Below are positions 8,901-34,884 of a DNA stretch of 37,585 nucleotides, one piece after another. The notes under the pieces were generated by a model. That model ran no database searches. It was given only the letters and a program-made list of their open reading frames with translations, and was not told where the DNA came from. Each line of letters opens with the position of its first letter. The first letter of the stretch is position 1. The translations under genes and the position numbers were made by a program. The DNA is from Nitrospirales bacterium (GTDB lineage Bacteria; Nitrospirota; Nitrospiria; Nitrospirales; UBA8639): NCBI GenBank assembly GCA_029261235.1, contig JAJDBS010000149.1, forward strand, positions 1 to 37,585, in the 5' to 3' direction.

Positions 8901-10082
8901 CTTCGCGACGGGCTCCACGCATCTCCGATTCAACTCAAAGGCGTCTCTAGTAAAATTCATACGTTAACATTCGATCCGTCTGGCGACCACGTGATTGCTG
9001 GCACAAGTGATGGGAAAATGCTCGTATGGGCCATAAACCAGCCACTACAGTCACCTAAAATATTCACAGGACACACCGCCAGTGTGTTGACGGCAGCCGT
9101 AAGCCCAGATGGACAACACATTGCCTCTGGAAGCCTCGATTCCACCATTCGTTTATGGGAAATTTCCGAACCAACAGCCTCTCCGCGCATTCTTCAAGCG
9201 CATCAAAAGGGAGCAACAACCCTTGCGTTTCGCCCAGATGGGAAAGAGCTAGCATCTGGCAGTCAAGACCACACGATTCGATTATGGGACCTCATCAATG
9301 AAAAACCCCAACCAGTGACGCTGGGCACTCATGCTGGACGAGTGAATGCGATCACCTATACCCCCGATGGCAAAACCCTGCTTTCCGGCGGTGATGATCT
9401 GGCGCTCCGCGTCTGGGATCTCCAACGAAAGGATAGTCCTCCCAAAATTCTGAAGGGACACCGACAGAGCATTGCCACCATCTCGATTCACCCATCTGGA
9501 TGGATGGTTGCCACTGGCAGTCGAGATCGTCAGATTGGTCTGTGGAACCTTCGCCAATCACTCGCTCCTCCAACTTTTTTGTCAGGATCGAAAGGACGAG
9601 TCTCACATGTTCAATTTAGTACAGATGGGACATCCCTCGCTTCCGTGAGTTCTGATAAATCCTTACGAATTTGGAATTGGCAGGAACCTAAGCAGCCGCC
9701 CATTCAATTTCCTGGGCACAAAGGCACGTTAGAAGCTATGGCTATCAGTCCTGACGGGAGAACGATTGCCGTCGGTGGGAGTAGCCAGAGCGTGACACTC
9801 TGGACCGGGACAAGACAACTGGCACATACCGTATGTGATACGGCAAGAGAAAACCTCTCTTTTTCGGAATGGAAGCAAATGGTGGGAGAAAATATTCCTT
9901 ATGAACGTACCTGCCCCAATCTCCCATTACACCCGACCTTTTTAGAAGAGGGAAAGAAGTTGGCTCGACAAGGCGCCCACAAGAAAGCTAGAGCAATATT
10001 TGAAAGAGCCAAACAATTGGACCCCTACTTGAAAATTGACCTAGATACCGAACTTAAGAAACTCTCCGCCAAATCATCTTAA
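5967..10082 (+). CDS. Membrane protein with ATPase domain, long coiled coil and WD40 propeller
   Basis: A 1371-residue multidomain protein. Residues about 20-360 resemble the AAA-like/nSTAND ATPase domain found before WD40 repeats in bacteria: Walker A SPQMGKTS (K51) and Walker B PIVLFIDE (D143-E144). One membrane span lies at about 391-411. Basic residues precede it and acidic ones follow, which suggests the ATPase is cytoplasmic and the rest periplasmic. Residues about 440-910 are a very long Gln/Glu/Lys/Leu-rich coiled coil. Seven WD40 repeats (about 989-1283), each ending like IRLWDL or LRVWDL, should form a complete propeller. The tail, with CPNLPLHP and a half-TPR-like EEGKKLARQGAHKKARAIF, is typical of bacterial WD40 signalling proteins. 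The role is unknown; envelope sensing, scaffolding or STAND-type defence signalling are all possible. It stands alone between long spacers. Confidence 0.88.
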   Translation: MAPTHHQNSTSNPNNKGRDLYYVQRPADAELLDHCQNARPTYILQSPQMGKTSLIAHTIEQLNANTHQAVRIDLSQFPLSQREEDWFYYIVRILDDQLDLTTDAISWWSKPSVFALPPYIRLTKLMTDVILPEMTMPIVLFIDEVERTMTLPFRDHVFEWLTSMYESRATNSILYRISFVISGMANPSELIPDGGPLLFQWSHRVVLSDFTTEETLVLAVKLSFHEDDTAEIAEWVFKWTHGHPYLTQLLFQILEEQHRTVWLEKEVDECIQGFIMSPEGLHEPHFQFIRTALTEPDANGVNLLNAYSDLLKGKTKNLKSNQTSLEQLRLIGILRQDDDDTHAEIVIRNALYQEIFSLSWVKRHLFPQGAVTSSPTSQAGTWYVTAFQPSNLMAASLFLLGIGLLIWFFSPQSTETFVETTKNDATVPIEAPRIPNQSTGTENTPEALSEAQNKIEELEAAIVRHQYLAASEIEGTSHNREALEEAQEKIQVLESTIARYQDLSVDKAESLVDQRTQLNAQLASKEETLSTAQTQVETLKAEISEQQHVHGQAIATLQIERDQLATQRTTVAVNLQAALEEVKTLQMAVLKKSSLSPSEMNQLVADRSKLDTQLHAAHTELALASDRTRELESLLSQQQQLVKHESQLRQEDRTGLETQIHELEARITDTRQTLSTTEAKSQEQATLAQTELRRLRKDLTHYQERLATSQQEHSALTTQTVEIKDTVKQKNQTIEEEQEKVAKLQTQLAQLTQELNSAKTQVANLDDQLSTAEMKVAQNKKTLEAIHASSSEQNRRTGEKTTELALVRSTLQTQLQEKRTALIKAQEHIAQLTENAANMSATETNLKKTSKERDDYAQKLQSTEQQLSEAQSQNQFTQQQMAKAQTKIQGLEQSLRTASSKATNEGSDSLDSSTSEQSAQSNSARQGDIVKVVSMITAQLTQSPSPIQSKTTKLLWARQAYELNLQTTGAHWSTIDRSLRDGLHASPIQLKGVSSKIHTLTFDPSGDHVIAGTSDGKMLVWAINQPLQSPKIFTGHTASVLTAAVSPDGQHIASGSLDSTIRLWEISEPTASPRILQAHQKGATTLAFRPDGKELASGSQDHTIRLWDLINEKPQPVTLGTHAGRVNAITYTPDGKTLLSGGDDLALRVWDLQRKDSPPKILKGHRQSIATISIHPSGWMVATGSRDRQIGLWNLRQSLAPPTFLSGSKGRVSHVQFSTDGTSLASVSSDKSLRIWNWQEPKQPPIQFPGHKGTLEAMAISPDGRTIAVGGSSQSVTLWTGTRQLAHTVCDTARENLSFSEWKQMVGENIPYERTCPNLPLHPTFLEEGKKLARQGAHKKARAIFERAKQLDPYLKIDLDTELKKLSAKSS

Positions 10083-19654: not shown

Positions 19655-20548
19655 ATGGTAGTCAGGATCAAACGACTTACTCTTAAACAACCTCGCCGAC
19701 GAAAGAGGAATAAACGTCGAATAACGCTCACGACTCTAAGGCGTTTCGTCCACCAATGTTGGAGAGCACTTCGTACTCTCATGAAGGCGGTGCTGGCCTT
19801 ACCGTCACTCATTCGTATCATCGTAATCCCAGCCCTCCTGTTCCTCCTGTGGTTTGGCGTCAACTGGACCTATCATGCGCTCAATAAACCGAGCGAAGTC
19901 CTCTTTCCCCTAGACCACTCGCTCAATAAACACCCGATCGAAACCTGGAAGGAATATGAATCGCTCTTCCGTGAACATGCGACCGCCATCATCACCCCTG
20001 AATTTCTGGCGGCACTCGCGCAAGTCGAGGCAGCAGGCAATCCCGTCGCCCGGACATACTGGCGATGGCAACGATCGTGGAATCCACTGGAATGGTATCA
20101 ACCGGCTTCAAGCGCGGTGGGCATGTTTCAGATTACGAACGGAACCTTTCAAGAAGCCAGACGCCATTGTATCCACAATCACGTAGTCGTTGAGGACGGC
20201 GCATGGCACAACTTGAAATCATGCTGGTTCAATAGCCTGTACACCCGCATCGTCCCAAGCCATGCCATTGAATTGACTTCGGCACTACTTGATCGCCGAG
20301 TGACAGAGTTGTTAGGCACACAACGACTCAAAACGACCCCGCTCCTACAACAGCAGGATTTGGCCGCAATCATCCATCTCTGCGGTGCGGGAGCTGGGAA
20401 GGCCTATACCGCACGCGGGCTCAAGTTGAGTTCACGACAACGATGCGGAGATCACGACGTACGCAAATATCTGGTGCGCATCAATTCATTAAAAATGAAC
20501 TTCAAGAAGCCTGAGGCAAGAAACAAAACGATCAGACGAGCAAGATAG
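19655..20548 (+). CDS. Membrane-anchored lytic transglycosylase-like (SLT domain) protein
   Basis: A 297-residue protein. The frame is open upstream to a GTG at 19577 inside the previous gene, but ATG at 19655 avoids that overlap and sits five bases after its stop. The N-terminus is very basic (RRRKRNKRR), followed by one membrane span at about 49-70. The outer domain resembles lysozyme-like lytic transglycosylases that cleave peptidoglycan: E125 in AQVEAAGNP takes the place of the catalytic Glu in the usual ESxxNP motif, followed by SAVGMFQITNGTF (the usual GLMQI/MPxT region) and AIIHLCGAGAG. Cys residues occur in HCIHN, LKSCWFN and HLCGA. Substrate and activity are inferred from the family. 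Confidence 0.8.
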   Translation: MVVRIKRLTLKQPRRRKRNKRRITLTTLRRFVHQCWRALRTLMKAVLALPSLIRIIVIPALLFLLWFGVNWTYHALNKPSEVLFPLDHSLNKHPIETWKEYESLFREHATAIITPEFLAALAQVEAAGNPVARTYWRWQRSWNPLEWYQPASSAVGMFQITNGTFQEARRHCIHNHVVVEDGAWHNLKSCWFNSLYTRIVPSHAIELTSALLDRRVTELLGTQRLKTTPLLQQQDLAAIIHLCGAGAGKAYTARGLKLSSRQRCGDHDVRKYLVRINSLKMNFKKPEARNKTIRRAR

Positions 20549-21155
20549 CCTTCTCTTCCAAGTACAAGTTTTCAATCCCTGAACGTCAAAAAACTATGAC
20601 TTACTCATTCAGTATCAGTGAGTCTCTCATGCTCCGTAATGTGCTGTGCTCTGCCTTTTTATGCGATGCGTATCCAGGCAAAACCCGTCAAGCCATGTAT
20701 TCATGACTTTCACTTTCAACTGAACATTACAACATTCAAATGCTTGATGGCATTAAGGTTAAGAAATGCTTGGGATAATCCGGTTAGATCTGTCTCTATC
20801 GATCAGGGCGAATGGCAAAAAAGTCAGAGCAGTTATTGACCATAGGCATCTTGAGACTCTTCTCAGAATTGGATTACATCATGGATTGGAATTAATAACC
20901 AAAACTTCATGGATTGTTTGCATTCAAAAGCCGCATGAGTGTGCATATGGGAATATTGAATAATACCAAGCTCCAAAGGCACATTTCCCCAAGACGACTT
21001 TTGCACGCAAGAGTTTCGGAACTGTTCAAAAAATGTCATCCAGCGAGGCTGAAGCCTTTTTTTCGCGCGGAGCGGACCTTCTGTACGTGAGCACGGGAAA
21101 AGGGCTAAACACTGCTAGCGGATTTTTTCAACAGGCTCAATATCCATGTCTCAGC
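20549..21155. other. Convergent spacer with one repeat element
   Basis: About 600 bases between convergent genes. The only structure I can support is the palindromic repeat at 21022-21134. The two short plus-strand frames (20618-20839, 20766-20963) have no recognisable product and no ribosome-binding sites. Confidence 0.5.
21022..21134. repeat. 113-bp palindromic MITE/REP-like element
   Basis: Terminal inverted repeats CTGTTCAAAAAAT and ATTTTTTCAACAG differ at one position. Internal arms AGCCTTTTTTTCGCGC and GCACGGGAAAAGGGCT are also complementary with a few mismatches or G-U pairs, so the whole folds back on itself around a GGACCTTCTGTACG core. It carries no ORF. No target-site duplication is evident. 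It lies 21 bases past the acyl carrier protein stop and could also act as the operon's terminator. A diverged copy is at 10156-10266. Confidence 0.7.
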
Positions 21156-21407
21156 TCACGAGGCTCTCTTCTCTAAGTACTGTGTGATCGCTTGAAGGGT
21201 ATTCAGTTCTGTGATCAACAGAGTCGGATCTAATTCCACGCCGAATTCATCATTGATCAAAGCCATCCAATAGACCGAACCCATAGAATCAATGATTCCG
21301 TGTTCGAAAAGATTGACATCCCACAGAAGGTCAATCTGCTCACCATTTAGGAGCCCATTCTCTCTCGCTAAACACTGCAACCGGCTTTTGATGTTATATT
21401 CGCTCAT
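21156..21407 (-). CDS. Acyl carrier protein
   Basis: An 83-residue carrier protein, last gene of the lipid operon. The phosphopantetheine attachment Ser is S41 in HGIIDSMGSVYW, followed by a LINDEFGVEL helix and a final helix LNTLQAITQYLEKRA. The spacing LFEHGIIDSMG is closer to stand-alone carriers such as DltC or siderophore/FAAL partners than to the fatty-acid-synthase AcpP (DSLDTVE). Its likely role is to accept the acyl group from the AMP ligase encoded first in the operon and present it to the reductase-aminotransferase fusion. It starts 27 bases after the LolA-like gene. A dedicated phosphopantetheinyl transferase is not seen in the window. Confidence 0.9.
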   Translation of the reverse strand: MSEYNIKSRLQCLARENGLLNGEQIDLLWDVNLFEHGIIDSMGSVYWMALINDEFGVELDPTLLITELNTLQAITQYLEKRAS

Positions 21408-21434
21408 TGACCAGGGTTCCCTAGTACCCCTCTA

Positions 21435-22214
21435 TCAGCGGACCCGCTCTAAGGCTGACTTTGAAAAATTGCGTTGCGTGAAGCCTTGGGAGAATTCATA
21501 CCCCGGTGTTGTCAAAATAGTCACATCACCGGTTTGATGATTGGTCATCATCATTTTTCCTGGACGCCAAAACTGGCCTTTATAGGCAACCCAATCTTCT
21601 GTCTCTAAGGTCTTGAGTAACTTGCTCTTCCGATCAAAATAGACCACTCGAAGGGGCTGATTCGTCTCCTGATCTACATAGGCTTCCTTGCGACTGTAAG
21701 CAGAGTACTCGCTAATGGGAATTCGTTCGATATGGTCTACGCGCTTTCCACGATACTCACGTTCTCCAAGGTATTGATACGTATAATCGTTCACGTCTTC
21801 CCCGACCAAATCCTCGTATATGAACTCCGTCCCCATAAACCGTCCCGTACGGTCACGGGATCCAATACGTTTGATTCGTTTAAATGCTGGCATGTACAAC
21901 CACTGATCATCATCGGCATCAAGATCTTGGTGAGTGAGTAAGGCTGTCCCTTTAACATCACGGGGAAATTTAAAAATCACCAGCGTTTTATCCCCTTGCC
22001 CACCACTCCCTTCCAGGACCTGCATTCTGATCTCCCGTCGTGACGTTCGACCAGTTTTTGTTTTCAACAGCATTTCCATGTTTGAAGCAAAATCTTCAAA
22101 ACCTGTGTCGAGCTGTTCTCTATCCATGTAGACTTGCTTGCCTTTATCTTCCGCTGCCACGAACGCCGCGAGTGCAGGAATGAGAGATAGCACAAGCATG
22201 AAAATTTTCAACAT
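21435..22214 (-). CDS. LolA-like outer-membrane lipoprotein-sorting protein
   Basis: A 259-residue periplasmic protein of the LolA-like family that accompanies RND/MMPL exporters. A signal peptide runs to about FVAAED (residue 22). The mature part has the family pattern: SRREIRMQVLEG, LVIFKFPRDVKGTALLTHQD, DDQWLYMPAFKRIKRIGSRDR, FIYEDLVGEDVNDYTYQYLG, YVDQETNQPLRVVYFDR and a last strand GDVTILTTPGYEF. ATG at 22214 is chosen over a TTG at 22232 because AAGGA lies nine bases before it. It starts 22 bases after the exporter gene. By analogy with LolA it would carry a hydrophobic product across the periplasm between exporter and outer membrane; this is inference from context. Confidence 0.85.
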   Translation of the reverse strand: MLKIFMLVLSLIPALAAFVAAEDKGKQVYMDREQLDTGFEDFASNMEMLLKTKTGRTSRREIRMQVLEGSGGQGDKTLVIFKFPRDVKGTALLTHQDLDADDDQWLYMPAFKRIKRIGSRDRTGRFMGTEFIYEDLVGEDVNDYTYQYLGEREYRGKRVDHIERIPISEYSAYSRKEAYVDQETNQPLRVVYFDRKSKLLKTLETEDWVAYKGQFWRPGKMMMTNHQTGDVTILTTPGYEFSQGFTQRNFSKSALERVR

Positions 22215-22236
22215 AGCAGAATATCCTTCCAAGGTT

Positions 22237-24558
22237 TCAACCCACGAGCACCTTTCGCTCGTGTAACCATTTCAGCATAATCGGGAGAAGTAATAAGTCG
22301 GCAAGCAATGCACTACAGATTCCTATAGCAAAGAACACGCCAAAAAATGCACTAGGCAGAAAATCTGAGACTGCCATGGTAAAAAACCCTCCCACGAGGA
22401 TCAAAGAAGTGGAAATGATCCCTTGCCCGGTCACATCTAGAGATTTTTTAAGAGAAGCCTCTAAAGGCAAACCATTGCTCAGCTCATCACGAATTCTAGA
22501 TAGCAAGTAGATACTGTCATCTACCGCCACCCCAATCACAGCTCCTCCAAGCAAGCAGGTCGCGATGTTGACGGTCACGCCGAACCAGGCCATCAGGCCA
22601 AGGGTGATCAAAATAGGGAGAAAACTCACTGCGAAGCCAAGTAAACCAAGGACAACAGATCCCAAAATAAACGGCAGTAAAATCAGCAAAATGATGCTCG
22701 TGGCCAGAACGGAAAATACTTGGGTATAGACCACCTGATGATCCATATTGGCCCATAGAACGTTCGTGCCGGTAATATTCACAGTTAGATCAGGAGGCAA
22801 CGTGTTCTCTCGAATGGTCTCCAATTGATGTCGGAATTCATTGATGGCTTTCGTACTCATGTAATCGGTCAACACCACAAGTTGCACGTACTGATTACTT
22901 CCGCTGATAAGATCAGGGACGTCGTCGTTTCCGCTAGCCTCTGCCAGCAGAAGGAGTTGACTCACTTGCGAACTACCGTAAGCGCGAAAAATCTGTTCCG
23001 ATGTTTCGGAGCCATTAAAAGCTTTATCTACCTCGCGAAGCAGATTGGTCACCGAATTTACTTTCAAGACTTCTGGCATAGCACTCACCCTATCCTCAAA
23101 CAATAGAAGGGTTTTAAAATTATCGGAGTTGGCATAACTGTCCTGATCGGGAAATTCGATCATCACGTTCACGTAGGATTGAGGAAATTCCGAATCCTCA
23201 AATTTCTGATAGTCAGTCGGAGTCCGACTGCTTTCACGAAAGAAATGCACGTAATCAGTATCGGCTTCCAATTGGAGAAGACCGGTGAGGCAAAACCCCA
23301 GTAGAAAAATGGCCAGAATGGCGTAAATTCGTCGATGATTGGTCGTATCAAGGATACGAAGCATGAACTGATGACGCCATCGACGCGCAGGGGCCTGCGA
23401 TGGATTTCTGTGGCTCCACAAGCGGTGGAGCAGAATCGGCGCCAGAAACATCGTCAGAATCCACGCCAGAAAATTTCCGAAGGCTGCCAGCAAGCCAAAC
23501 TGGCGAACGGGCATAACGGTACTGATACCAAGTGAGGCAAATGCAATGATGGTTGTTGTCGCAGTCCAAAAACCAGGACGCCACAGTGTCGCTATCGTCT
23601 CCGCAAGAGCGGAATGTGCCTCCGAATGTCTCAGATTCACATGAAAGTCGTTAATGAAATGGATAATGTAGGATGTTCCCATAGAAACCACGACCGTTGG
23701 CAGCATGATCGTCACCATATTGAATGGAAGATCCAAAGCTGAAATAACCGCGATCGTGGGGAGGACCGTGCCCACGATCACCACAAGAAAGGGAATCAAA
23801 TCATATTTGGTGGGGAGCATGGCATAACCGCTTCCAACCAGAAGAATAGAAATCAGGGCGTAGAAAAGGAACATGTCACGCCTTGCCGCACGGTTTAATT
23901 CCGCATTGATTGTCGTCGTTCCGGCTACCCCAAAATCGGTTACCCGCGGGTAGGCTTCAGCAAGATCGTCAACGGCATCTATAAGGTTCATGCGATACGG
24001 GCGGGGATCGCTCAGGCGATTGTCGTTTTGGATTGCGATGATCGTGTGCTGATCATCACCTATTCGAAATATGTTGTTATGGAAAACTGGGTTCTGATGA
24101 AGGCGCAATCGGAGAAGTTCGACCTCTTCGTCATTAGGCACCAGACCCACTTGAGTTGGGTAAATGGGAGAATAGTACAGCGTTCCCTCTTCATCAAGTT
24201 CATTATCCTTGACATTCGTAAGAGAGATCACTCGCTTGATGTGCTCTATAGACTCCAGACGGTTCGTGAGGGCAGAAAGATCCCTTAAAAACTCCGCGTC
24301 GTAAATTGAATCGGTCTCAAGCCACAGATAGGTCCATTCCGTTTCACCAAACACGTCATTGAACAATTCGAGGTGTTGTCGCTCTGTATCACCAGAATCG
24401 AACCAAACGGCGACGGAATTATCGATGGAGAACCGAGTCACATAGATCGATAGAGAGGAGATGACAACAATGGTCCAAAGGACAAATACCACAGTTTGCC
24501 ATCTCAGAAGTCTATCGACAAACGTTCTGGCAGTATAGTGCTTCCAAGGAAAACTCAT
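22237..24558 (-). CDS. RND/MMPL superfamily lipid exporter
   Basis: A 773-residue inner-membrane transporter. It shows the duplicated RND plan: TM1 near residues 22-42, a large periplasmic loop to about 215, five membrane segments to about 390, TM7 near 412, a second loop, and five more segments to the end. Family landmarks are MLPTVVVSMGTSYIIHFINDF in the first half and CLLGGAVIGVAVDDSIYLLSR in the second, where the Asp pair probably carries the proton path. The length and lack of an adaptor protein fit MMPL/HpnN-like exporters of lipids rather than AcrB-type drug pumps. Only three bases separate it from the preceding ligase gene. The cargo is probably the lipid made by the operon. Confidence 0.92.
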   Translation of the reverse strand: MSFPWKHYTARTFVDRLLRWQTVVFVLWTIVVISSLSIYVTRFSIDNSVAVWFDSGDTERQHLELFNDVFGETEWTYLWLETDSIYDAEFLRDLSALTNRLESIEHIKRVISLTNVKDNELDEEGTLYYSPIYPTQVGLVPNDEEVELLRLRLHQNPVFHNNIFRIGDDQHTIIAIQNDNRLSDPRPYRMNLIDAVDDLAEAYPRVTDFGVAGTTTINAELNRAARRDMFLFYALISILLVGSGYAMLPTKYDLIPFLVVIVGTVLPTIAVISALDLPFNMVTIMLPTVVVSMGTSYIIHFINDFHVNLRHSEAHSALAETIATLWRPGFWTATTTIIAFASLGISTVMPVRQFGLLAAFGNFLAWILTMFLAPILLHRLWSHRNPSQAPARRWRHQFMLRILDTTNHRRIYAILAIFLLGFCLTGLLQLEADTDYVHFFRESSRTPTDYQKFEDSEFPQSYVNVMIEFPDQDSYANSDNFKTLLLFEDRVSAMPEVLKVNSVTNLLREVDKAFNGSETSEQIFRAYGSSQVSQLLLLAEASGNDDVPDLISGSNQYVQLVVLTDYMSTKAINEFRHQLETIRENTLPPDLTVNITGTNVLWANMDHQVVYTQVFSVLATSIILLILLPFILGSVVLGLLGFAVSFLPILITLGLMAWFGVTVNIATCLLGGAVIGVAVDDSIYLLSRIRDELSNGLPLEASLKKSLDVTGQGIISTSLILVGGFFTMAVSDFLPSAFFGVFFAIGICSALLADLLLLPIMLKWLHERKVLVG

Positions 24559-24561
24559 AGC

Positions 24562-26406
24562 TTATACATATGAGTTAAGGTCTAAGCGCTCTAACTCAAA
24601 CAAAAATTTAATCTTGTGCGTGGGCGTCCGTTCTAAAGGTTTTGGCAACAGATAGATCCGTTTTTTTGACAACCGAGCGGTTACCTCTGCAATAGATTCT
24701 GCATAGTCAATGGCTTCTTCAAATAACCCTCGTAACGCTTCTTGCTCAGGCACTCCTGTGGAGATTTGCTTTTGCCACTTGGCATCCTTCCGAATGCGGG
24801 GATAATCTGGATAGACAAAGACACTGAGGTCTGTATCTTCGGGACAAAGACGAGTCACCAAGGCATCTTTAACAAAGACGGATCGGACCATCATATTCGA
24901 CAAGTGCATGGGATCGACGTACGTACCATCATCCCAGCGAATCAATTCCTTTCGTCTCCCTATCAATCGCAATAGCCCTTGACTGTCAACCGAAGCCAAA
25001 TCCCCGGTATTGTAATAGCCGTCTTCATCGAGATGTTGATCGGCCGGTTCATGGAGATACCCCTTCATCAGCGTGGGGCCTTTCACGCAAAGTTCCCCAA
25101 CAGTGTAGGGAATGCCTGGAATAGTTTCCTCGTTGATGAGACGATAATCAAGAGGAGAAATGATTCGCCCACATGTCCCAGCATTAATATCGTTGAGTCG
25201 ATTACGAGAAATAATGCCAGATAGCTCAGTCGCGCCATAGATATCTATCACGGTCACTCCCAGCTTGCCGAAAATCTGGACCAGCGCCCCATCAAGCTTT
25301 GAGCTAGATGAAATGCCATAACTGAAGTACCCACCAAGCTTGTTGCGTAAGAAGACGCGCATCGCGGCCAACTTGGCCTTGTCCAGGGTACCAATGTCAT
25401 GGAGGTTGGCATGTTTTTCAATGCTGGTGAGATGCAGGTACAGATTATGAAGGACGGGTTTATTTTTCATTTCTTCTAGTACTTCTTTGAGCACATAAAT
25501 CCAAAACTTGGGCACAGCCATCAGAACCTTAATTCGCACACCTTGTCGCTTCAGTTTCGCAATTTCATTTTCTAAGACCTTATCCTCATCCGGTTCGCGG
25601 GTGAAATATGTCACCGCGAATCCACGGGTCTTCGTCACCAGGAATTCCACCAATGTTGCAATGTGCGTATAAGGCCCGATGTTGAGCAATTCTTCGTTGA
25701 TACGAAGATTGATCACATCAATGGCTTCGTTGACTTCACAGACAATATTCTGATGGGTGATTTGTACGATTTTCGGAAGTGACGTCGTACCTGAAGTTCC
25801 GTAATGGCCCAGCACGACATGAGGATCTTCCAGACGTGGGCTAGACACAAACGGGCCTGTAATATCAGTCTCTTCCACCAGCTGCGCAATACTGATTTCG
25901 TTGCCGCGCAACTCCTCTGGCTCGACACCCTGGTCTTCAAACACGGGCACCAAATCTGCTACCAAAATTTTGGTGGGTAGTGCCAACTCGTCGAGCAAAT
26001 TTCGCATTCGTTGAAGTTGCGCAACAGAGAGAAGGAGATAATCTGGTGGATTCATGGATAACAGATGCCGAAGTTCTACGACATTCATTTTGGTATCGAG
26101 TGGAAACAAGGTATTTCCAGTATAAAACGTCGCCAACGCTGTCATATCCCATTCCTGTCGGTTTTTGCATAATGTGGCAATGACGTGCTGTTTCTCTCTT
26201 TCACACTCGAAAAATCGGATCATCACCTTAATCCGCTCAAGGTAGATATCGTAATGCATCGCCTCATATGTGAAACCATTATCAAACCGAAGAGCAACCC
26301 CATCTCCATAGACTGGAAGATGGTCGTTTACGATGTCTGAGACCGCATTGATAGAATTGAAAGCCTTGAATTTTTTTGCAGCACAGGGATTACGCGAGAG
26401 TAACAT
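24562..26406 (-). CDS. AMP-forming ligase (acyl-CoA synthetase-like), second of the operon
   Basis: A 614-residue ANL-superfamily enzyme that activates a carboxylate as acyl-AMP and passes it to a thiol or amine. Core motifs: P-loop YGTSGTTSLPKIVQITH near residues 200-217, DIYGATELSGI, YYNTGDLASVDSQG, LIGRRKELIRWDDGTYV, and a C-terminal Lys region PTHKIKFLFE. The usual GK pair of the A10 motif is replaced by THKIK, with the Lys kept. An unusual insertion (LRNKLGGYFSYGISSSSKL) resembles long-chain acyl-CoA synthetases. AAGGAGCT lies six to seven bases before the ATG. It might activate a second acid for amide formation with an amine made by the preceding fusion; this is inference. Confidence 0.88.
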   Translation of the reverse strand: MLLSRNPCAAKKFKAFNSINAVSDIVNDHLPVYGDGVALRFDNGFTYEAMHYDIYLERIKVMIRFFECEREKQHVIATLCKNRQEWDMTALATFYTGNTLFPLDTKMNVVELRHLLSMNPPDYLLLSVAQLQRMRNLLDELALPTKILVADLVPVFEDQGVEPEELRGNEISIAQLVEETDITGPFVSSPRLEDPHVVLGHYGTSGTTSLPKIVQITHQNIVCEVNEAIDVINLRINEELLNIGPYTHIATLVEFLVTKTRGFAVTYFTREPDEDKVLENEIAKLKRQGVRIKVLMAVPKFWIYVLKEVLEEMKNKPVLHNLYLHLTSIEKHANLHDIGTLDKAKLAAMRVFLRNKLGGYFSYGISSSSKLDGALVQIFGKLGVTVIDIYGATELSGIISRNRLNDINAGTCGRIISPLDYRLINEETIPGIPYTVGELCVKGPTLMKGYLHEPADQHLDEDGYYNTGDLASVDSQGLLRLIGRRKELIRWDDGTYVDPMHLSNMMVRSVFVKDALVTRLCPEDTDLSVFVYPDYPRIRKDAKWQKQISTGVPEQEALRGLFEEAIDYAESIAEVTARLSKKRIYLLPKPLERTPTHKIKFLFELERLDLNSYV

Positions 26407-26459
26407 GAGGGAGCTCCTTTACATGACTTTCTTGTTATGGGTTTCGAGAGTCTCGACCG

Positions 26460-29450
26460 CTAAATTAACGATCTTGCTTGACTCAATACCTTGTCATCTA
26501 GTTTAAAGTCACCGAGAGAAAATCCATGTCGATCGGCCATGTCAACTGTGTGAAAAACTTGATCAATCTCCAATAGATTCTTGCAGAATGAATGATTACA
26601 TCCCTCAAATCCAACTAATAGCGTTTCCGCCACACAGCCATATGCCAATCTATCTCCAGGCATTCCCACAAAATTGATAGCAGAATCTTCTGGTAATCGT
26701 GCCAGACCACCGTCAAATGCATAAAAGTCAGCCTCTCTTCCTACTAACGTAGTACTCAAGTTTGACGGCACTGAGGCGCAACAGATGACGGACCCCATTT
26801 TCAAATTCTCTGGACTAATGAGATTGGCATCAGGAGAGTTTGTGGCCACAACGACGACATCACAAGAACGTAATATCGCGGGGTTCGTATGAAGTGCTAT
26901 ACCGCAACTCTCCATCGTTCCAAAATGTTCAACCAACACCGATTCGAGACATTTTCCCATGCCTGATGGTGGAGTAGGCGCCTGAAGACCGAAACGCAGC
27001 ATCGCCACGGCCTTGGAGAAATCACTCCCCTCCTGCATTGTTTTGGTTCTTAGGAAAGTAGAGAGTTCTCGTGCAAAACCCGTTAAGGTTGTGTCTTCCA
27101 GGTCAAGACCTTCTGCTGACTCTTGGTGAACAGCCTTAAAGATGCTCTGAAGGCAATGCTGACGAGCATAGTTTAATCTAAAGGTGCCCGATTCTCCTGA
27201 TCGACCGATCAGATATAGTTGCCCGGCATGTCTAGCCAAAACTTGGGAAAGTACGAGACCAATGTTGCCTGTCGCGCCGACAACAGCAACTGAGACCTCA
27301 CTGATTTCGATACCTCGCTCTTCAACAGCCTTTTCAATTCCCTGAAGCACAAGCGCCGCGGTATACGCGTTCCCTGTGGTGATCGGGACTTCATAGTCGT
27401 TAATTGTCGATCCATTGTTTGTGACGATAGAGGTATACGCTCCAAGTCCGACGACTGTTGTGGGGATATTGTCGTCTCCCAGCTCCCGCGCAATAGTCAC
27501 AGCATCTTGAATTTTGTCTTGAATTTCCTGAAGACGGGGGCCAGGCTTTAGGTTGGTCAGAGATTCGGGCAGAAAAGGTACAAACACAAGATTATTTTCC
27601 AACACGAATTCCTGAGATGTAATGTAACTGCTATGGGCATAGACCGGTTCCAAAAATCGTGAAAGCCGTTTCCACCACTGCTCCATGGCTGTTGCCTCCC
27701 ATTGATAGTGAGCGAATGATGGAAAGTAATAGTCGATGAGATGCCGCAGTTTTGTTGGATGCACCACGAAACCAGAGCGTGCATCGATATGATGTTGGCC
27801 TCTCGTTTCATCTACCTTCCACGTGACTGACATGGTTGTTGGATTATGGCGGTCTTCCTCGCGAACGGTCTGTCGGCTCAGGTGTCCCACAAGGCAAAAT
27901 TCGTTGTTGTGGGCAATGACCTGGAACACCTCGTCAAGGGCATGGATACACCGATCGATCTCTTCATTCGTGATGGTGCCTGGGGGTTGAAACCGTAATA
28001 TGGATTGTCGTTCCTTGCCCGGATTGCCTTTGAGCACAGTGGTCAGCGGTGCTAGCACTCGAATATGGTGGTATTCCAGGAGATAACTGGCAATCAACAA
28101 GGCCAAGACGCCCTGTTTGCCGGCTGCTCTAAAAAATGGGGCGTAATGATTGAGATGCGTCAGTTCAACCCCGATCATCAGCCCGCGACCCCTCACATCT
28201 TTAATAATGTCAGGATACCGTTCTTGAAGAGTGCATAATCTGTCTCGGAAGTATGCCCCTTTTTCGACGACCTCGTTAAGGAAACGGTTGTTCTCGCGCG
28301 TAAGAATATCGAGGTATTTAAGCGAAACATGGGAGGAGATCTCGTCTTCCCCAAAGGTAGACGTATGCAAGATTCCGAAGTCTTCATCATAAATGGATTT
28401 CTTGATAAGAGTGGCTCCAATTTTTACCAACCCTCCTCCCAAAGCCTTGCTTAGAGTAATGTATTCAGGTTCAATCCGAGAAAGTGGCGTTTGCGAAAAA
28501 GCACAGATGGCCCCAGTCCGACCGCTCCCCGTTTGAATTTCGTCAATAATGTACGGCACTTTGAGTTGGTCATGGAGACCTGCGAGCGTTTCAAGAACGG
28601 CATCCGGGACAATGAGGATCCCCCCTTCCCCAAGAATGACTTCCATGATAAACGCGATCACTTGGGTCATCCGCGCTGACCGTAATACTACTCGTCCATT
28701 CTCCAGAATGGGGTAATAGAACTGCACGTAATGATTCTTGACCGCATCCTCTAAGCGTTCAGGCTGATTTAAATCAATAAAAACTGGTTGAATAGAAGAC
28801 AGCCCTTCAAATGCCTCACGAAAACTTTTATTGAAGGTCACTTTTAATGACGAGGCCGTCTTCCCATGAAACGCCCCTTTAAAGGCTGCAACAGCGGGGT
28901 GATCTTGAACGCGCTCGAATTGAGCAAGGTTGTACTCGTCAAGATCATCACGGAATTTAGTGAGAGTGGCCTTGCCTTCAGGCAACTCCACGTCAAGCCC
29001 CTCTCGTTCGATACGGTGATACAGATCATTGAGAATACGGGTGTACTTTTCATAGGCACGGCGCACCGCGTCCAAATGCACTTTGTACGCGTGCTTCAAC
29101 GCCGCTTCCACGCTTTCGGTCCCGCTATTGGTGAAGTTCACGTAGTATCCCGTTTTTCCAGGTACGAGTTCATTCAGTCGTTGAGCGAGCGAAGCGGCCT
29201 CCGCACGCATCGAGACTTGCGCATTCATGGGAATGTTACGTGAGACCGCGTCAATGAGGGTCTGTTTCAGCTCAGGATGATTGTGGCCTGCTAGAACTGC
29301 CCCAAATCCACCGATCAGGTCAAGCACAGGAGGTCCATCCTGAGGATAAAGGTAGTTACCCTCCGCGCTGATATACTCCTGATCTAGTCGCAATGCAGTC
29401 AACAACTCAGCCAATTTTGGTTTGCAGTAGTCGTTATACAAATTTGGCAT
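26460..29450 (-). CDS. Fusion: class III PLP aminotransferase + acyl-ACP reductase (AAR-like)
   Basis: A 996-residue fusion. Residues about 1-480 are a class III aminotransferase: FTNSGTESVEAALKHAYKVH, GAFHGKTASSLKVTF, PLP-binding D303 in IIDEIQTGSGRTG, and Schiff-base K335 in LSKALGGG. Residues about 540-996 closely follow cyanobacterial long-chain acyl-ACP reductase: GLGAYTSIVTNNG, ITTGNAYTAALVL, the NAD(P) loop VAVVGATGNIG (G725, G728, G731), VVVVATNSP, and GCVAETLLVGFEG, where C939 aligns with the catalytic Cys of that family. The logical product is a fatty amine: acyl thioester to aldehyde by the C-terminal half, then amine by the N-terminal half. Its start overlaps the upstream ligase by 17 bases, implying translational coupling. 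A related plan (reductase-aminotransferase fusion) is known for TamH in tambjamine synthesis. Confidence 0.88.
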   Translation of the reverse strand: MPNLYNDYCKPKLAELLTALRLDQEYISAEGNYLYPQDGPPVLDLIGGFGAVLAGHNHPELKQTLIDAVSRNIPMNAQVSMRAEAASLAQRLNELVPGKTGYYVNFTNSGTESVEAALKHAYKVHLDAVRRAYEKYTRILNDLYHRIEREGLDVELPEGKATLTKFRDDLDEYNLAQFERVQDHPAVAAFKGAFHGKTASSLKVTFNKSFREAFEGLSSIQPVFIDLNQPERLEDAVKNHYVQFYYPILENGRVVLRSARMTQVIAFIMEVILGEGGILIVPDAVLETLAGLHDQLKVPYIIDEIQTGSGRTGAICAFSQTPLSRIEPEYITLSKALGGGLVKIGATLIKKSIYDEDFGILHTSTFGEDEISSHVSLKYLDILTRENNRFLNEVVEKGAYFRDRLCTLQERYPDIIKDVRGRGLMIGVELTHLNHYAPFFRAAGKQGVLALLIASYLLEYHHIRVLAPLTTVLKGNPGKERQSILRFQPPGTITNEEIDRCIHALDEVFQVIAHNNEFCLVGHLSRQTVREEDRHNPTTMSVTWKVDETRGQHHIDARSGFVVHPTKLRHLIDYYFPSFAHYQWEATAMEQWWKRLSRFLEPVYAHSSYITSQEFVLENNLVFVPFLPESLTNLKPGPRLQEIQDKIQDAVTIARELGDDNIPTTVVGLGAYTSIVTNNGSTINDYEVPITTGNAYTAALVLQGIEKAVEERGIEISEVSVAVVGATGNIGLVLSQVLARHAGQLYLIGRSGESGTFRLNYARQHCLQSIFKAVHQESAEGLDLEDTTLTGFARELSTFLRTKTMQEGSDFSKAVAMLRFGLQAPTPPSGMGKCLESVLVEHFGTMESCGIALHTNPAILRSCDVVVVATNSPDANLISPENLKMGSVICCASVPSNLSTTLVGREADFYAFDGGLARLPEDSAINFVGMPGDRLAYGCVAETLLVGFEGCNHSFCKNLLEIDQVFHTVDMADRHGFSLGDFKLDDKVLSQARSLI

Positions 29451-31170
29451 ATTGATCTTTTTCTCCTATGTCGGGAATCATTCCCTGAAGATAGCGTTCC
29501 AGAATAACCTTACGACGTTTCTTCCCACTTGATGTCTTTTCAATCGTTCCCTTTGCACATAACCTGATGGTCCCCACCATAAGACCGAAGTTTCGCATCA
29601 CGGCACCCTGAATCTGTGATCTCCACACAGACGCAGCCTCAAAAGCCATACGAGCACTCACCTCCACGATAAGAATTGGCTTAGTGAGCCCAGTGGCACT
29701 ATCCTCTGCGGCAATAAGACATGATCTCCCTGGCCCAAGGAATTCTAAGGTCTCCACGACAGATTCAACATCATCAGGAGAGATATTGGAGCCCCCAATG
29801 TTGATAATGTCATCTTGTCGAGCCACGAAAAATAGTTCACCATCGGCCACAAACCCAAGATCACCGGTTTTGAAAATCTGCCCATCAATTTTTTGAGTGG
29901 TCGCTTCAGAGTTGCGATAATACCCGGGCGTGACACAATCGCCATATATCCAGATCTCGCCTAGCCAACGGTCTGGTAGAACCTCACCTGCTTCATTGCG
30001 GATGGTGATGTCATAATCAAGGAACGGAGCTCCAACGGACACAACTCTATTAAATTGCTGCTGCCTTGCATCTGGCTCCAGAACTTGACCATCTGCTTCA
30101 ATGACAACAGCTATATTGCGAATTCGACCACGAGGCGTCACAGTGCATCCAAGAGTGTTCTCCGCCATGCCATAGGCAACGTGGAACTGAGAAGAAGTCA
30201 TCCCCAGGGGGCTGAACACATTGTAGGTCCGATCTAGAACGCTCGCGCTCAATTTTTCTGCCGCAAAGAAGATGTGGAGACCAGAGAGCTCAATAGCTGA
30301 AACATCTTTAGATTTTGAGAGAACGTTACATGCGGCCACCATAGCGGCATTAGTCGTAAAATTAAGGTCAGTGCCTGCTTCAGAAAGTAGCGTAAACCAA
30401 CGTTTAGGGTTCCGCATGTAAAACTCAGGGGAGGTTAAGATATTATTGATGCCCATATACAGCGGAAAGAGGACCCCACCAATCAATCCCAGATCATGGT
30501 TCATGGGCATCCAAGAACCAGCAGAACCGATCGGCTTGGCTGAAGTTTCTCGAGTCCCTCTGGCCATATGGCGCAGCTGATTCATCATCATGTTATGCGT
30601 AACGATCACACCCTTCGGATCCCCTGTACTTCCGGAAGTAAACTGCAGAATGGCAATATCCCCTGCGTCCGGAATTACCCGATCATCAACATAAGACATG
30701 CTTTCATCGTTGATGCATATGAGATGGCTGAGAGACATAATCGATGTAGAGGCTGCGACCCCGATCTCACCTAAAATACTTCGGTCAATGGAGTCATCAC
30801 ATATAAGAATAGAAAAATCGCAGACTGTATCAACTACCTTGATGTAGTTTTGGTAATGAGGACCACTTGTGACATGTGGCCTCAGAGGTACCGCAATCGC
30901 ATTTCGCCTCCAGAGTGCCAACAGTAAGATCACGTAGTCCGCACTATTCGCAAGAATGAGTCCGACGCAATCTCCAGCACCTATTCCCAAATCTTTCAAT
31001 CGGTTGGCACACATTCCGGCCAGAGCATCCATCTCTCTCAGACGTAGACGTCGTTCCTGCTGAGGGAAAAACCAGATGCTGTCTTCTCGTTCAGCACGAA
31101 GGGAAACGATTTCGTTGATGCTGTCAAAACTAGTTTCGTTGTTTAGCATTTTGGCCTGAAGCGTTTGCAT
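29434..31170 (-). CDS. Fatty-acyl-AMP ligase (FAAL)-like enzyme
   Basis: A 578-residue ANL enzyme, first gene of the operon. P-loop LQFTSGSTGDPKGVIVTH is near residues 175-192. SWMPMNHDLGLIGGVLFPLYMG is the segment typical of fatty-acyl-AMP ligases, followed by YGMAENTLGCTVTP, TGDLGFVADGELFFVAR and the C-terminal catalytic Lys region IEKTSSGKKRRKVI. FAALs transfer acyl-AMP to an acyl carrier protein rather than to CoA, which fits the carrier gene at the operon's end. Substrate length is unknown. No strong ribosome-binding site precedes the ATG at 31170; ATG at 31149 is an alternative. A long non-coding region lies upstream. Confidence 0.9.
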   Translation of the reverse strand: MQTLQAKMLNNETSFDSINEIVSLRAEREDSIWFFPQQERRLRLREMDALAGMCANRLKDLGIGAGDCVGLILANSADYVILLLALWRRNAIAVPLRPHVTSGPHYQNYIKVVDTVCDFSILICDDSIDRSILGEIGVAASTSIMSLSHLICINDESMSYVDDRVIPDAGDIAILQFTSGSTGDPKGVIVTHNMMMNQLRHMARGTRETSAKPIGSAGSWMPMNHDLGLIGGVLFPLYMGINNILTSPEFYMRNPKRWFTLLSEAGTDLNFTTNAAMVAACNVLSKSKDVSAIELSGLHIFFAAEKLSASVLDRTYNVFSPLGMTSSQFHVAYGMAENTLGCTVTPRGRIRNIAVVIEADGQVLEPDARQQQFNRVVSVGAPFLDYDITIRNEAGEVLPDRWLGEIWIYGDCVTPGYYRNSEATTQKIDGQIFKTGDLGFVADGELFFVARQDDIINIGGSNISPDDVESVVETLEFLGPGRSCLIAAEDSATGLTKPILIVEVSARMAFEAASVWRSQIQGAVMRNFGLMVGTIRLCAKGTIEKTSSGKKRRKVILERYLQGMIPDIGEKDQYAKFV

Positions 31171-31671
31171 AATTTATTGTTCTTCAAATTTAGTTAATAT
31201 CATCTCCGTGACTCGGGTATTAGCAAAAAGCAAGAACCTTGCCATCTTATTGATGACTGAGTACAGAGGTCATTGCATCGGCGAAACATATTGATTCTAG
31301 GGAAGCTCTTCATTCTTGGTAGGTTAGCTGAAGATCATCGCTATTTCGAAGAGCGTGCCTGTCAGATACACAATTAACCGATTAGATACATAGCAAAAAC
31401 AAATAGGAACGGCGAAATAGGGAGAGCTGCCCCACGTGAGATACCATGTAGTCAGAGTAGGCACTTCCGCAACGATCTGTAAAAATATTTTATACCGTGC
31501 GATAAGAATAACCCTCAACTTTAGCCAAATCCTGAATACTCTCAAGAGTGAGAGACCCTCGAGCATCACAAAGACTTAAAGCGTTATTTCAAAGTTTTAA
31601 GAATTAACTAACAAGCCTCTTTCAAACTAGGCTGGGGATTAAGCTAAGATTCCCGTGATTCTGGGATAAGG

Positions 31672-31780
31672 AGGAAGGATGAGAAAGTAACGGTTTACTC
31701 TTGAAGATAGTATCGAGCATTGACGAGAAGTCGAGACGTTGCCTGTTGAATTTTTCTCACAAAAGGCCCATATATGCTCT
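31672..31780 (+). pseudogene. Possible IS3-family transposase remnant
   Basis: GGAGGAAGG followed by ATGAGAAAG reads MRK, a stop, then RFTLED, close to the usual IS3 OrfA start MRKSRFTEEQ apart from the stop. A second frame just after it reads IVSSIDEKSRRCLL, similar to the OrfB segment IVDEFTRECLA. This would be an internally deleted, broken element. The similarity is short and could be coincidental. Confidence 0.3.
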
Positions 31781-32134
31781 AGAAGAATTCCATTTCAGGA
31801 ACCAACGAGAATGGTCAAAAAAGTCATTAAGCAGGGCAAAAGGGCGAGAACACCGCTGGTGCCTTTTTTCAATATTCCCAGATGATACGGTCACGGATGG
31901 ATGCTCCGGAGAATACAAGGATTTTTCGTCTAAAAAAGTGCTTGAGGTTTGCCGTCATGTATCCAGATCATTGACAAGGCCCGTGACCACTGGCCTTGAT
32001 GGCATTCGCCCTCAGCAGGTCTGAGGAGAAACACCCAATCAAGTAATCGAGCTGTATGCTCGGACAACACCACCTATCACCGGCTAATTGTGGAACAATG
32101 CCAGGAAAACCTCAACGCTAAGCCTCAGCTCGAC

Positions 32135-32156
32135 CGATCGATCGATCGATCGATCG
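32135..32156. repeat. (CGAT)5 tetranucleotide repeat
   Basis: Five perfect CGAT units plus CG, self-complementary, ending 13 bases from the stop of the outer-membrane barrel gene. It lies outside any supported gene, so it would not switch a reading frame. Confidence 0.85.
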
Positions 32157-32169
32157 CATAGTGGCATTA

Positions 32170-33450
32170 TCAGTAGACATAAGACAGCTGGAAGGCCACA
32201 TTGTCCGCATCTTCGAATGGCCTGAGAGAGTCTTCATTTGCAGCATCGATTATCTCGCCATACACCATAAACGTAATACGGTCGAAGAAACGCTCTTTAT
32301 ATTCGAGCCGCCACAATTGTGTTCCATTCGTCAGATCTACAATCACTCCGGCCAGTAGCTCTCCACCCCCAAAGTTATTACGTGACCAGCGAATTGCCGG
32401 AAAGAGATCGTTTTGGAATGGGCGAAAGCCTACGTCGTCTATATCCTGTTGAGAATTGTACAAATATTCAGTGATGATCCCAAAATCGCTGTCTCCAAAC
32501 ACCCCGAAAAAGGTGTATTCAAATCCTCCAACAAACGCGGTAAGATTATCAGGAACCAGATCTCGGCGGCGGAGGCTTCCATCAACCAACACCGAATTGC
32601 CCACAAAAGATCCAGCGATTCCAGTATCCTGGTATTGAATTTCGGCCTTGAGCAGCCAACTCCCTAAGCTCATTTGAATATCTCCGCTCACCTGTTGAAC
32701 TTCATAATACAAGGTCTCCGCTTTTCCGACACCTGGATTCAATGTGAGCACCGGGAATCGTTCATAACCATTGAAGTAAATCAAACCGATGTCAGCAGAC
32801 CCAAGCGTGCTCTTCCAGCGGAGGGCAAACTGGGGCCGAAGACGCTCAGCGGTATTCGTATAGAAACGATCCTCGTCGATATTGAAACCGCCAGCTAGAG
32901 GATTATAGGGATTGACCTTGTCAGGAAGAGTAGCAGGCGTGAAGTAAGGTAAGTAATACACATCAACGACCTGATCTCCGAGAAAACCCCTGACTCGGAT
33001 TGCCGGTTCTCCGATTTTATTTTCTCTAGGATCGAAGAAATCCACCCTGTAATCCTTTTGATTAAAGATGTCATTGAGATTAAAAGACTCCACTGCACCC
33101 CAGAAATGGGTTTGGTATCCGGCACGGACCTCGAAATATTCTGCAACATATTCGCCATAGATATCGTCGAGCGAAAGTAAATTGTATTCCGAATCATTGA
33201 GCCCAAGGCGGAATCGTGGAGCGATGACAGCCGCCCAGGAGCTTTTGTACTGTAGACCCAAGTCAGGTTTGACCTGGAGGAATGAAATCACGTCTTTCTG
33301 GGATCCACTCTGCGCGTCAGGGAAGAAGGCAACATGAGCTATCCCCGTAGCCTTGAAATCATATTCGAGTGGATAGCCCTGCTGTGTGGTAAAAAATAGG
33401 ATAAAGATAGTGAGGATCAGGCACATCATAGAAAAATACTCACGATCCAT
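32170..33450 (-). CDS. Outer-membrane beta-barrel protein (DUF1302-like)
   Basis: A 426-residue exported protein. A hydrophobic signal segment (MMCLILTIFILFF) ends near GYPLE. The mature part is a series of amphipathic strands rich in Tyr/Phe and Gly/Asp turns, with VRAGYQTHFWGAVESFNLNDIFNQKDY and FFDPRENKIGEPAIRVRGF typical of proteins that neighbour LolA-like and MMPL genes (DUF1302-like), and a terminal strand NVAFQLSYVY. It is on the same strand as the lipid operon but about 1 kb upstream. A role as the outer-membrane exit or receptor for the exported lipid is inferred from this partnership. ATG at 33429 is a second possible start. Confidence 0.8.
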   Translation of the reverse strand: MDREYFSMMCLILTIFILFFTTQQGYPLEYDFKATGIAHVAFFPDAQSGSQKDVISFLQVKPDLGLQYKSSWAAVIAPRFRLGLNDSEYNLLSLDDIYGEYVAEYFEVRAGYQTHFWGAVESFNLNDIFNQKDYRVDFFDPRENKIGEPAIRVRGFLGDQVVDVYYLPYFTPATLPDKVNPYNPLAGGFNIDEDRFYTNTAERLRPQFALRWKSTLGSADIGLIYFNGYERFPVLTLNPGVGKAETLYYEVQQVSGDIQMSLGSWLLKAEIQYQDTGIAGSFVGNSVLVDGSLRRRDLVPDNLTAFVGGFEYTFFGVFGDSDFGIITEYLYNSQQDIDDVGFRPFQNDLFPAIRWSRNNFGGGELLAGVIVDLTNGTQLWRLEYKERFFDRITFMVYGEIIDAANEDSLRPFEDADNVAFQLSYVY

Positions 33451-33610
33451 GACCGATTTCTTGAAGGAAAAAGATACGAGAAAATAAGGGCTACCATTCG
33501 AAATACAATACTCAATTTCTTCTCGACTAGAGTAGTTTTGGATCTATAGAGCTCAGTATGTATCACAATTCCATAAAAACCGATATTGTCCTACCTGCAC
33601 ATTGGTTTTT

Positions 33611-34258
33611 TCAAGATAATCGCGGCTTAATCAAAAAGACGCCATCTCGTATAGTCAACAGTACAGCAGAAATTCGCGGTTCTGCATGCACTAGGCGATT
33701 CAGTTTTTGAATGGCTTCGGTATTGGAATCTGGCGGTGGACTCTTCAACACGTCTCCGCTCCACAGCACATTATCAATCAGAATCACACCAGTCGGAGCA
33801 ACCAACTCCAAAGCCCGCTGAAAATAGTTCACATAATTAGCTTTGTCGGCATCAATAAAAATGAGATCGAATTGACCATCCACGGTTGCAAGGGTTTCCA
33901 GTGCCGGAGCGAGACGAAGTTGGATTTTTGAACCATGCGGACTTTCAGCCCAATACTTTTTGGCCAAAGTCGTCGATTCCGGATCAATATCACAGGTGAT
34001 GACCTCTCCCCCATCGGGAAGACTCTCCGCAAAACACAATGCGCTATAGCCAGTAAACGTGCCGATCTCTAAGATGCGCTTGGCACCAACACTCATAGCC
34101 ATGACCTTCAAAAAGGCTCCTTCCAAAGGCCCGACGACCATTTGAGGACATTCCATCGTACGATGCGTGTCTTCCCGTAACCGTCTACAAATATCCGATT
34201 CGTTATTCGAATGAGCTTCCGCATAGGCCTCAACCTCAGGTAACACCATTGGTTTCAT
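33611..34258 (-). CDS. SAM-dependent O-methyltransferase (caffeoyl-CoA OMT type)
   Basis: A 215-residue class I methyltransferase of the cation-dependent COMT/COG4122 group. Motifs are the SAM loop ILEIGTFTGYSAL, the acidic residue pair in ITCDIDPE, the metal-binding FIDADKANY, and DNVLWSGDV with the Asp-Asn pair that completes the metal site. The substrate is typically a catechol or similar vicinal hydroxyl; here it is unknown. AGGAGGGGG seven bases before the ATG is a strong ribosome-binding site. It lies 160 bp upstream of the barrel gene on the same strand, so a role in modifying the lipid product is possible but not shown. Confidence 0.92.
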   Translation of the reverse strand: MKPMVLPEVEAYAEAHSNNESDICRRLREDTHRTMECPQMVVGPLEGAFLKVMAMSVGAKRILEIGTFTGYSALCFAESLPDGGEVITCDIDPESTTLAKKYWAESPHGSKIQLRLAPALETLATVDGQFDLIFIDADKANYVNYFQRALELVAPTGVILIDNVLWSGDVLKSPPPDSNTEAIQKLNRLVHAEPRISAVLLTIRDGVFLIKPRLS

Positions 34259-34884
34259 GATCGCCCCCTCCTATAAAAATTTAATTTACAAATCAGCAAC
34301 GCATTCATTTTCCTCTTCAACATTCTTTCTCGGCAAGCATGACGAGGTGAAATGCTATGTCGTCATTTCGTTCAGCCCCTTGTTTTATCAAATCGGATGA
34401 ACTCCTCTTACAACGGACAGAAATAACGATGCGGAAAATATAGGATCATATAGAATCGATCGTTCCCGGCTCTTTCACGTGAAACACTGAATTGATCTGC
34501 TCCCCTAGTCCGACGCCTGCCGCCCGTCCCCAGGGTAGGACGCTCTTAACAATTGGCGAGCCTTGTTTGAGCGCAGCGAGTTGGCGCGGCTTCCTAAGCT
34601 TTGCGTCCGCCACATCTGATCAGACGGATGGGGCGTCAATGATTTTTCCTACTTTTCCCAAAAGAAAAGTAAGTCGTCTGCCTGGCCGAAACTCGGCATC
34701 TTCAGAAAAATCAAGAGATCGTTATTTCGAATAGCTCCCCGATAATACTTGTAGGAAATTGCGAGGAAAATGAGATCTTCGCTCTTGATGATAACTGAGA
34801 GTGTTTATTGCCAATTTCTGTACCGCTGACGTACAGTCCTACACGATACATCTCCCCACTTCATTATGAAAAAAGGATAGATCC
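34259..34884. other. Spacer with nested inverted repeat
   Basis: About 620 bases between divergent genes. The right part, 34490-34735, looks like a repeated non-coding sequence (see the hairpin inside it) rather than a gene, although an 80-codon frame runs through it. The left part shows nothing I can name. Confidence 0.45.
34621..34680. repeat. Nested inverted repeat (TACTTTTC/GAAAAGTA inside CAGACG/CGTCTG)
   Basis: TACTTTTC, loop CCAAAA, GAAAAGTA is a perfect 8-bp hairpin at 34650-34671. It is flanked by CAGACG (34621-34626) and CGTCTG (34675-34680), which are also complementary. From memory, stretches with GGCGAGCCTTGTTTGAGCG plus such an AAAAGTA hairpin recur between genes in many Gram-negative genomes. 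Confidence 0.5.

Follow-up and report, generated by a model that had tools for sequence, protein, structure and literature searches.

The window, by which we mean the whole 37,585-nucleotide stretch of DNA from a Nitrospirales bacterium that was analysed, carries an inserted island (20538..33619, no strand assigned) with seven genes. With a probability of about 0.6, we read this island as a gained fatty-amine pathway combined with an exporter, acting along the whole of the following route. A fatty acyl-AMP ligase (FAAL) would activate a fatty acid and load it onto an acyl carrier protein (ACP). The reductase half of a fusion protein would hold the chain of this acyl-ACP on C939 and reduce it to an aldehyde, which the transaminase half, with PLP on K335, would convert into a primary fatty amine at the expense of an amino-acid donor. 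A second ligase would probably attach or prepare a further group. An MMPL/HAE3-like pump would then take the lipid that bears the amine out of the inner membrane, a LolA-like protein would carry it through the periplasm, and a beta-barrel would insert it into the outer membrane or pass it through. In this route, we infer the substrate, the step of the second ligase, the transport of the island's own product and the final product.

Gene layout and the inserted island

The central protein of a six-gene operon is a 996-aa fusion (26460..29450, minus strand), described here as TamH-like on the strength of profiles and conserved residues, with a class III transaminase in its N-terminal half and an acyl-ACP reductase in its C-terminal half. 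It is preceded by the FAAL-like gene (29434..31170; AMP-binding 1e-53, DIP2-like domain 8e-8) and followed by the genes of a second AMP-forming ligase (24562..26406; AMP-binding 6e-38), an MMPL/RND pump whose nearest NCBIfam model is HAE3 (22237..24558; MMPL 6e-27), a LolA-like/DUF1329-like periplasmic carrier (21435..22232; LolA_like 3e-54, DUF1329 8e-13, PDB 3bk5 3e-58) and an ACP (21156..21407; PP-binding 1e-10, DSM motif with S41), all on the minus strand.

The initial annotation of this locus had given the same ends for the six minus-strand open reading frames as the ORF list, and its family names agree with our family scans of all six. The overlap of 17 bases between the FAAL and fusion genes was recovered in a spacing check, as were the gaps of 3 bases between the second ligase and the pump and of 27 bases between the LolA-like gene and the ACP. 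The proposed gap of 22 bases between the pump and the LolA-like gene is reached with an ATG at codon 7 of the latter, and it shrinks to 4 bases if this ORF starts at TTG. A gap of 53 bases between the fusion and the second ligase had been passed over. The six named genes stand, but the set was incomplete: it missed a further gene of the same island (32170..33450, minus strand), which codes for a predicted outer-membrane beta-barrel and is our candidate for the outer-membrane part of the exporter, as judged by a structure model and by its linkage with LolA-like genes. Compared with shuffled sequence, there are fewer promoter-like sites and about as many terminator-like ones.

The borders of the island come from a comparison of the gap at this site with sister genomes. 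The counterparts of window positions 20537 and 33620 lie 64 bases apart in the sister genome G005, and in G007 a distance of 176 bases separates the counterparts of 20424 and 33620; the same site spans about 13.1 kb in the window. As sister genomes are without the whole stretch 20538-33619, the barrel gene and the operon are one island. The spacing of 999 bases between the barrel and FAAL-like genes nevertheless counts against our main reading. Three other sister genomes have different DNA at this site (about 1.5 kb in G013, about 1.5 kb in G018 and about 2.5 kb in G010), which is possibly a spot of repeated insertion. A contaminating contig is ruled out, since the sequences on either side of the island match sister genomes in the same order. 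Codon usage gave no signal of foreign origin (correlation of 0.92 with the flanking genes; GC3 of 0.488 versus 0.466), and a self-comparison of the window found no repeat common to both island ends.

Several other features of the window were recorded. Dispersed short repeats, of which the genus has many relatives, lie at 20947-21139, 31886-32071 and 34443-34709, and these three copies do not match one another. The stretch 5967-10082 codes for a protein of 1371 aa that has WD40 repeats and, at its N-terminus, an AAA-like domain, and 10637-13384 is a 915-aa ORF with no Pfam or NCBIfam match.

The biosynthetic core and its predicted product

Both profile and PDB matches, the latter including the FAALs 3pbk and FadD23, indicate that the nearest relatives of the FAAL-like ligase are FAALs rather than CoA ligases. 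Its best NCBIfam model is that of fatty acyl-AMP ligase, with a score under the cut-off, and the cut-off of no model was reached.

The N-terminal half of the fusion has class III transaminases as its relatives (Aminotran_3 5e-65), with PDB matches to CrmG (5dds, 1e-58) and PigE (4ppm, 3e-42). The C-terminal half resembles long-chain acyl-ACP reductases (TIGR04058, acyl-ACP reductase, 8e-21, under the model cut-off; PDB 6jzq, 1e-15). We aligned nine fusions, namely those of the window, of the genomes G211 and G385 from the same order, and of six plasmid records. The PLP lysine K335 in the SKALGGG stretch is invariant in all nine, and all three glycines of GxxGxxG and the catalytic cysteine C939 are likewise kept in 9/9. 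C939 aligns to position 294 of the 6jzq chain, and the cysteine at this position of the cyanobacterial reductase is its active residue according to the accessible text of PMC9594044. The window fusion has both marks of TamH-type fusions, a class III transaminase with the PLP lysine at its N-terminus and an AAR-like domain with GxxGxxG and the catalytic cysteine at its C-terminus. From the motif we infer that K335 is the counterpart of K340 in PtTamH.

PtTamH is the transaminase-reductase fusion of the tambjamine YP1 cluster of Pseudoalteromonas tunicata. Together with PtTamA, which consists of an adenylation domain and an ACP, it converts the C12 acid into the C12 amine in vitro with NADH and glutamate, as the available part of the report describes (PMC9594044). 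Because PtTamH and this ligase-ACP protein make a C12 amine, the fatty amine predicted for the island rests on a known reaction. Acyl-ACP-dependent, NADH-specific formation of a fatty amine is a mark of TamH-type fusions, and the fusion of the window may share it. The series of ACP loading, aldehyde formation and amination put forward in the initial annotation is indeed the PtTamA-PtTamH reaction of that partly accessible source (PMC9594044), and the conservation of the catalytic residues in our alignment is consistent with it. An assignment of the fusion to PigE (NF053554) was rejected at 316.7 bits against a model cut-off of 850; the fusion is also far under the AAR model cut-offs. It is predicted to act like TamH and not like PigE.

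The second ligase is less easily read. Its TSGTT...PK stretch is kept in all three members of the order, and K598 of the window protein, which we align to the last ligase motif's catalytic lysine, is replaced by asparagine in G211 and G385. The best plasmid match among the matches listed is only 24-26% identical. Luciferases and coumarate ligases are the best PDB matches and do not tell the substrate, and the structure model was too poor for a reading of the fold (mean pLDDT 41). An amide-forming step by this ligase is possible; no analysis here supports an amide product.

Four of the genes, those of the FAAL, the fusion, the second ligase and the ACP, keep the order of the window in G211 and G385. 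In G211 their products are 41%, 54%, 58% and 36% identical to those of the window, respectively, and the gaps are 0, 10 and 24 bases; in G385 the FAAL gene is cut by the contig end, and the second ligase is 59% identical. Since four genes keep their order in G211 and the same four do so in G385, the six-gene grouping is not due to chance. The sharing of the core genes with these two genomes also rules out that the core is a single-genome oddity.

The fusion was found in 3 of the 235 genomes of the order, the window's own counted, and in 1 of the 20 genomes of the genus, which is the window's own. Among 295 sampled genomes of the phylum, two have it at full length (the window's and G211); G192 and G269 match part of the transaminase only and were left out of the relatives. 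Near-full fusions occur in ten plasmid records, nine of which cover at least 80% and one, from Rhodovulum, 76%. Six of these records were taken for sequence, and the other four, all from Leisingera, were judged from coordinates. The Leisingera fusion runs on into an AMP ligase (1395 aa), and the Paraburkholderia fusion begins with an ACP-like stretch, identified by alignment and not by a domain scan, and a FAAL-like gene comes after it. That the parts of the core are joined differently elsewhere speaks for one pathway. One scan of a named genome collection matched only part of an aminotransferase, and the phylum of G432, the genome of the Maribacter locus L006, gave 0/247 matches, an empty answer that is uninformative by the tool's own statement.

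The fatty amine may be no more than the tail part of a larger metabolite, the head of which is made by genes located elsewhere and activated by the second ligase. We regard this as possible, at somewhat worse than even odds. PtTamH itself contributes to tambjamine, a metabolite whose head comes from a pathway of its own, the second ligase accompanies the core in 3/3 cases, and other biosynthetic genes adjoin the fusion in Leisingera and Photobacterium DA100. The island, however, contains no other biosynthetic gene, and no bipyrrole-type set is present among the window ORFs scanned.

It is rather doubtful that the fusion uses a shorter or decorated acyl-ACP and yields an amino compound other than a plain fatty amine. 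The fusion shares about 25-30% identity with its relatives outside the order, which counts against our main reading, and the alignment shows insertions in the window-type fusions. Furthermore, the fusion also matches PigE and CrmG, which act on other aldehydes. Its partner ligase is nevertheless FAAL-like, and long-chain acyl-ACP reductases are the closest matches to the reductase half of the fusion, both of which favour a fatty amine.

The exporter genes and their linkage

The model of the barrel protein (mean pLDDT 68) shows the strands of a barrel and a helix at the N-terminus. Its nearest solved folds are porins, with the alginate exporter AlgE giving the highest listed TM-scores (0.55), and it has no Pfam match. 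Homologues of the barrel occur in 31 of the 235 genomes of the order and those of the LolA-like protein in 45. In 30/30 barrel-bearing genomes, a count that leaves out the window's own, the LolA-like gene adjoins the barrel gene and shares its strand, the matched parts being separated by 24 to 2483 bases. Unlike in these 30 genomes, the two genes are 9.9 kb apart in the window, which counts against our main reading. The nearest barrels are 55-59% identical and were found in other families within the order. Among plasmid records, a LolA-like match is present in 7/7 of those with a barrel match. A check of the neighbours in 8 of the 30 barrel genomes found an MMPL gene beside the barrel in 4/8 loci and none in the other four, two of which are on short contigs; these four loci count against our main reading. 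The MMPL protein of the window matches TIGR00921 (HAE3) at 3e-52; its 177.8 bits are below the cut-off of 351.9, yet this is its best NCBIfam match.

The three exporter genes are clustered in plasmid records of Halioglobus, Photobacterium GJ3 and Pseudoalteromonas rhizosphaerae. In Photobacterium DA100 the fusion, barrel, LolA-like and MMPL genes are on one strand and are accompanied by SDR and ketosynthase genes. LolA-like, fusion and MMPL genes are together in 5/5 Leisingera records, and the barrel gene is on the other strand in the single record examined for it (1 of 5). Export towards the outer membrane, as initially suggested, is supported by the barrel-LolA linkage and by this recurrence in Photobacterium DA100 and Leisingera. 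Separately, the Leisingera plasmid cluster L016 (1-30532) contains an acyl-homoserine-lactone synthase, pabB, 4-hydroxybenzoate 3-monooxygenase and an adenylating enzyme, and its transaminase-reductase-ligase fusion is flanked by LolA-like and MMPL genes.

Homologue searches across the 235 genomes of the order found no LolA-like or barrel match in G211 and G385, which have the core; this counts against our main reading and makes the exporter an addition to the core. The annotated neighbours of the Haematobacter and Rhodovulum fusions include no such exporter. The pump, carrier and barrel could then merely share the island and move another molecule while the amine stays in the cell. In keeping with this, most loci with barrel and LolA-like genes are without the fusion, and AmeABCD, a related exporter, serves hydrocarbon tolerance in the part of its description at hand (PMC6394551). 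We find this unlikely, as the pump and carrier genes are located between those of the second ligase and the ACP, at spacings of 3, 4 or 22, and 27 bases, and the fusion and the exporter meet also in Photobacterium DA100 and Leisingera. A fatty-amine pathway with its own exporter would connect a fatty-amine synthase of a characterised kind with an export route dedicated to it, in the window's order as well as in two classes of Pseudomonadota, and define a group of amine-lipid clusters. Furthermore, a barrel family that no Pfam model covers gains a clear partner in the LolA-like protein, and the hand-over of a lipid from pump to outer membrane becomes testable.

A much bolder conjecture, to which we give very little credence, is that these fusions supply surface amine lipids via the pump, LolA-like protein and barrel and, at its boldest, that the fatty amine is the exosortase acceptor for sorted proteins. 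In three Rhodobacterales (Haematobacter, Rhodovulum and Pseudorhodobacter) a VPLPA-CTERM protein over the model cut-off adjoins the fusion (L014 12508-13242, L017 16751-17461 and L018 16776-17468). These three proteins are homologous along their length, with 36-44% identity, and their wider surroundings differ. A scan of 14 sources for the VPLPA-CTERM pattern also matched the exosortase loci L022, L023 and L024, but no Leisingera, Photobacterium or Paraburkholderia locus, and no such protein was found by the pattern beside the window's island. An XrtD exosortase that scores over the model cut-off is encoded in the genome of the window. Exosortase content was rejected as a sign within the order because, with a match in 136/235 genomes, it is uninformative.

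Comparison with known systems

The closest counterpart of the biosynthetic core is the PtTamA-PtTamH pair, in which, going by the available text, an adenylation enzyme and an ACP feed a fusion of the same domain order and catalytic motifs, and PtTamH has the same two sets of relatives as the window fusion (PMC9594044). The ACP is fused to the ligase in PtTamA, whereas it is free in the window. The tambjamine cluster has genes for a bipyrrole head, which have no counterpart among the window ORFs scanned, and the accessible portion of its description contains neither a second ligase of the window's family nor a LolA/barrel exporter (PMC9594044). In a review of FAALs, a term search found tambjamine in a single place, a table, within the text available (PMC11837247). 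PigE of prodigiosin synthesis also combines transaminase and thioester-reductase domains in one protein, as stated in the part of the source at hand (PMC8341465); by profile positions, its reductase comes first and its transaminase second, the reverse of the window fusion.

The operon A1S_0112-A1S_0119 of Acinetobacter baumannii shares with the window a FAAL-like ligase, a free ACP, an RND transporter (A1S_0116) and a porin-related protein (A1S_0117), as far as its accessible description goes (PMC5376624). According to the same text, it has an NRPS and an acyl-CoA dehydrogenase where the window has the fusion and the second ligase, and its product, acinetin 505, is lipopeptide-like, unlike the amine predicted for the window. 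The A. baumannii locus found in our searches, taken to be this operon by its order and size, encodes a single protein with both MMPL and LolA-like parts, and a barrel gene comes next. Also of note is that the A. baumannii stretch L073 9018-12668 codes for a single chain in which an MMPL pump is combined with a polyketide-cyclase-like domain and a LolA-like domain.

AmeABCD of Castellaniella defragrans unites in one cassette an outer-membrane protein (AmeA), a LolA-superfamily (DUF1329) protein (AmeB) and an HAE3 pump (AmeD), and its deletion lowers monoterpene tolerance, according to the portion of the paper available (PMC6394551). A LolA/DUF1329-type periplasmic protein likewise accompanies an RND pump in the window. 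AmeA carries DUF1302 in that text, whereas the window barrel has no Pfam DUF1302 match; the latter does match the A. baumannii barrel (3e-9), which in turn matches a Haliovirga protein annotated as DUF1302. AmeABCD also includes AmeC; domain scans of the island found no further ORF with a recognised domain. As described there, AmeABCD serves monoterpene tolerance rather than the export of a lipid made by its neighbours.

Judged by their sequences, the barrel, LolA-like and MMPL proteins of the window resemble the exporters AmeABD and A1S_0116-0117. Regarding the initial statement that no described system has this exact set of genes, the fusion and the exporter proved to be each of a described kind, but, as far as literature searches reach, the statement stands for the whole combination of amine synthesis and exporter, of which they found no description. 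In summary, both halves of the island are known in kind, and their combination looks new.
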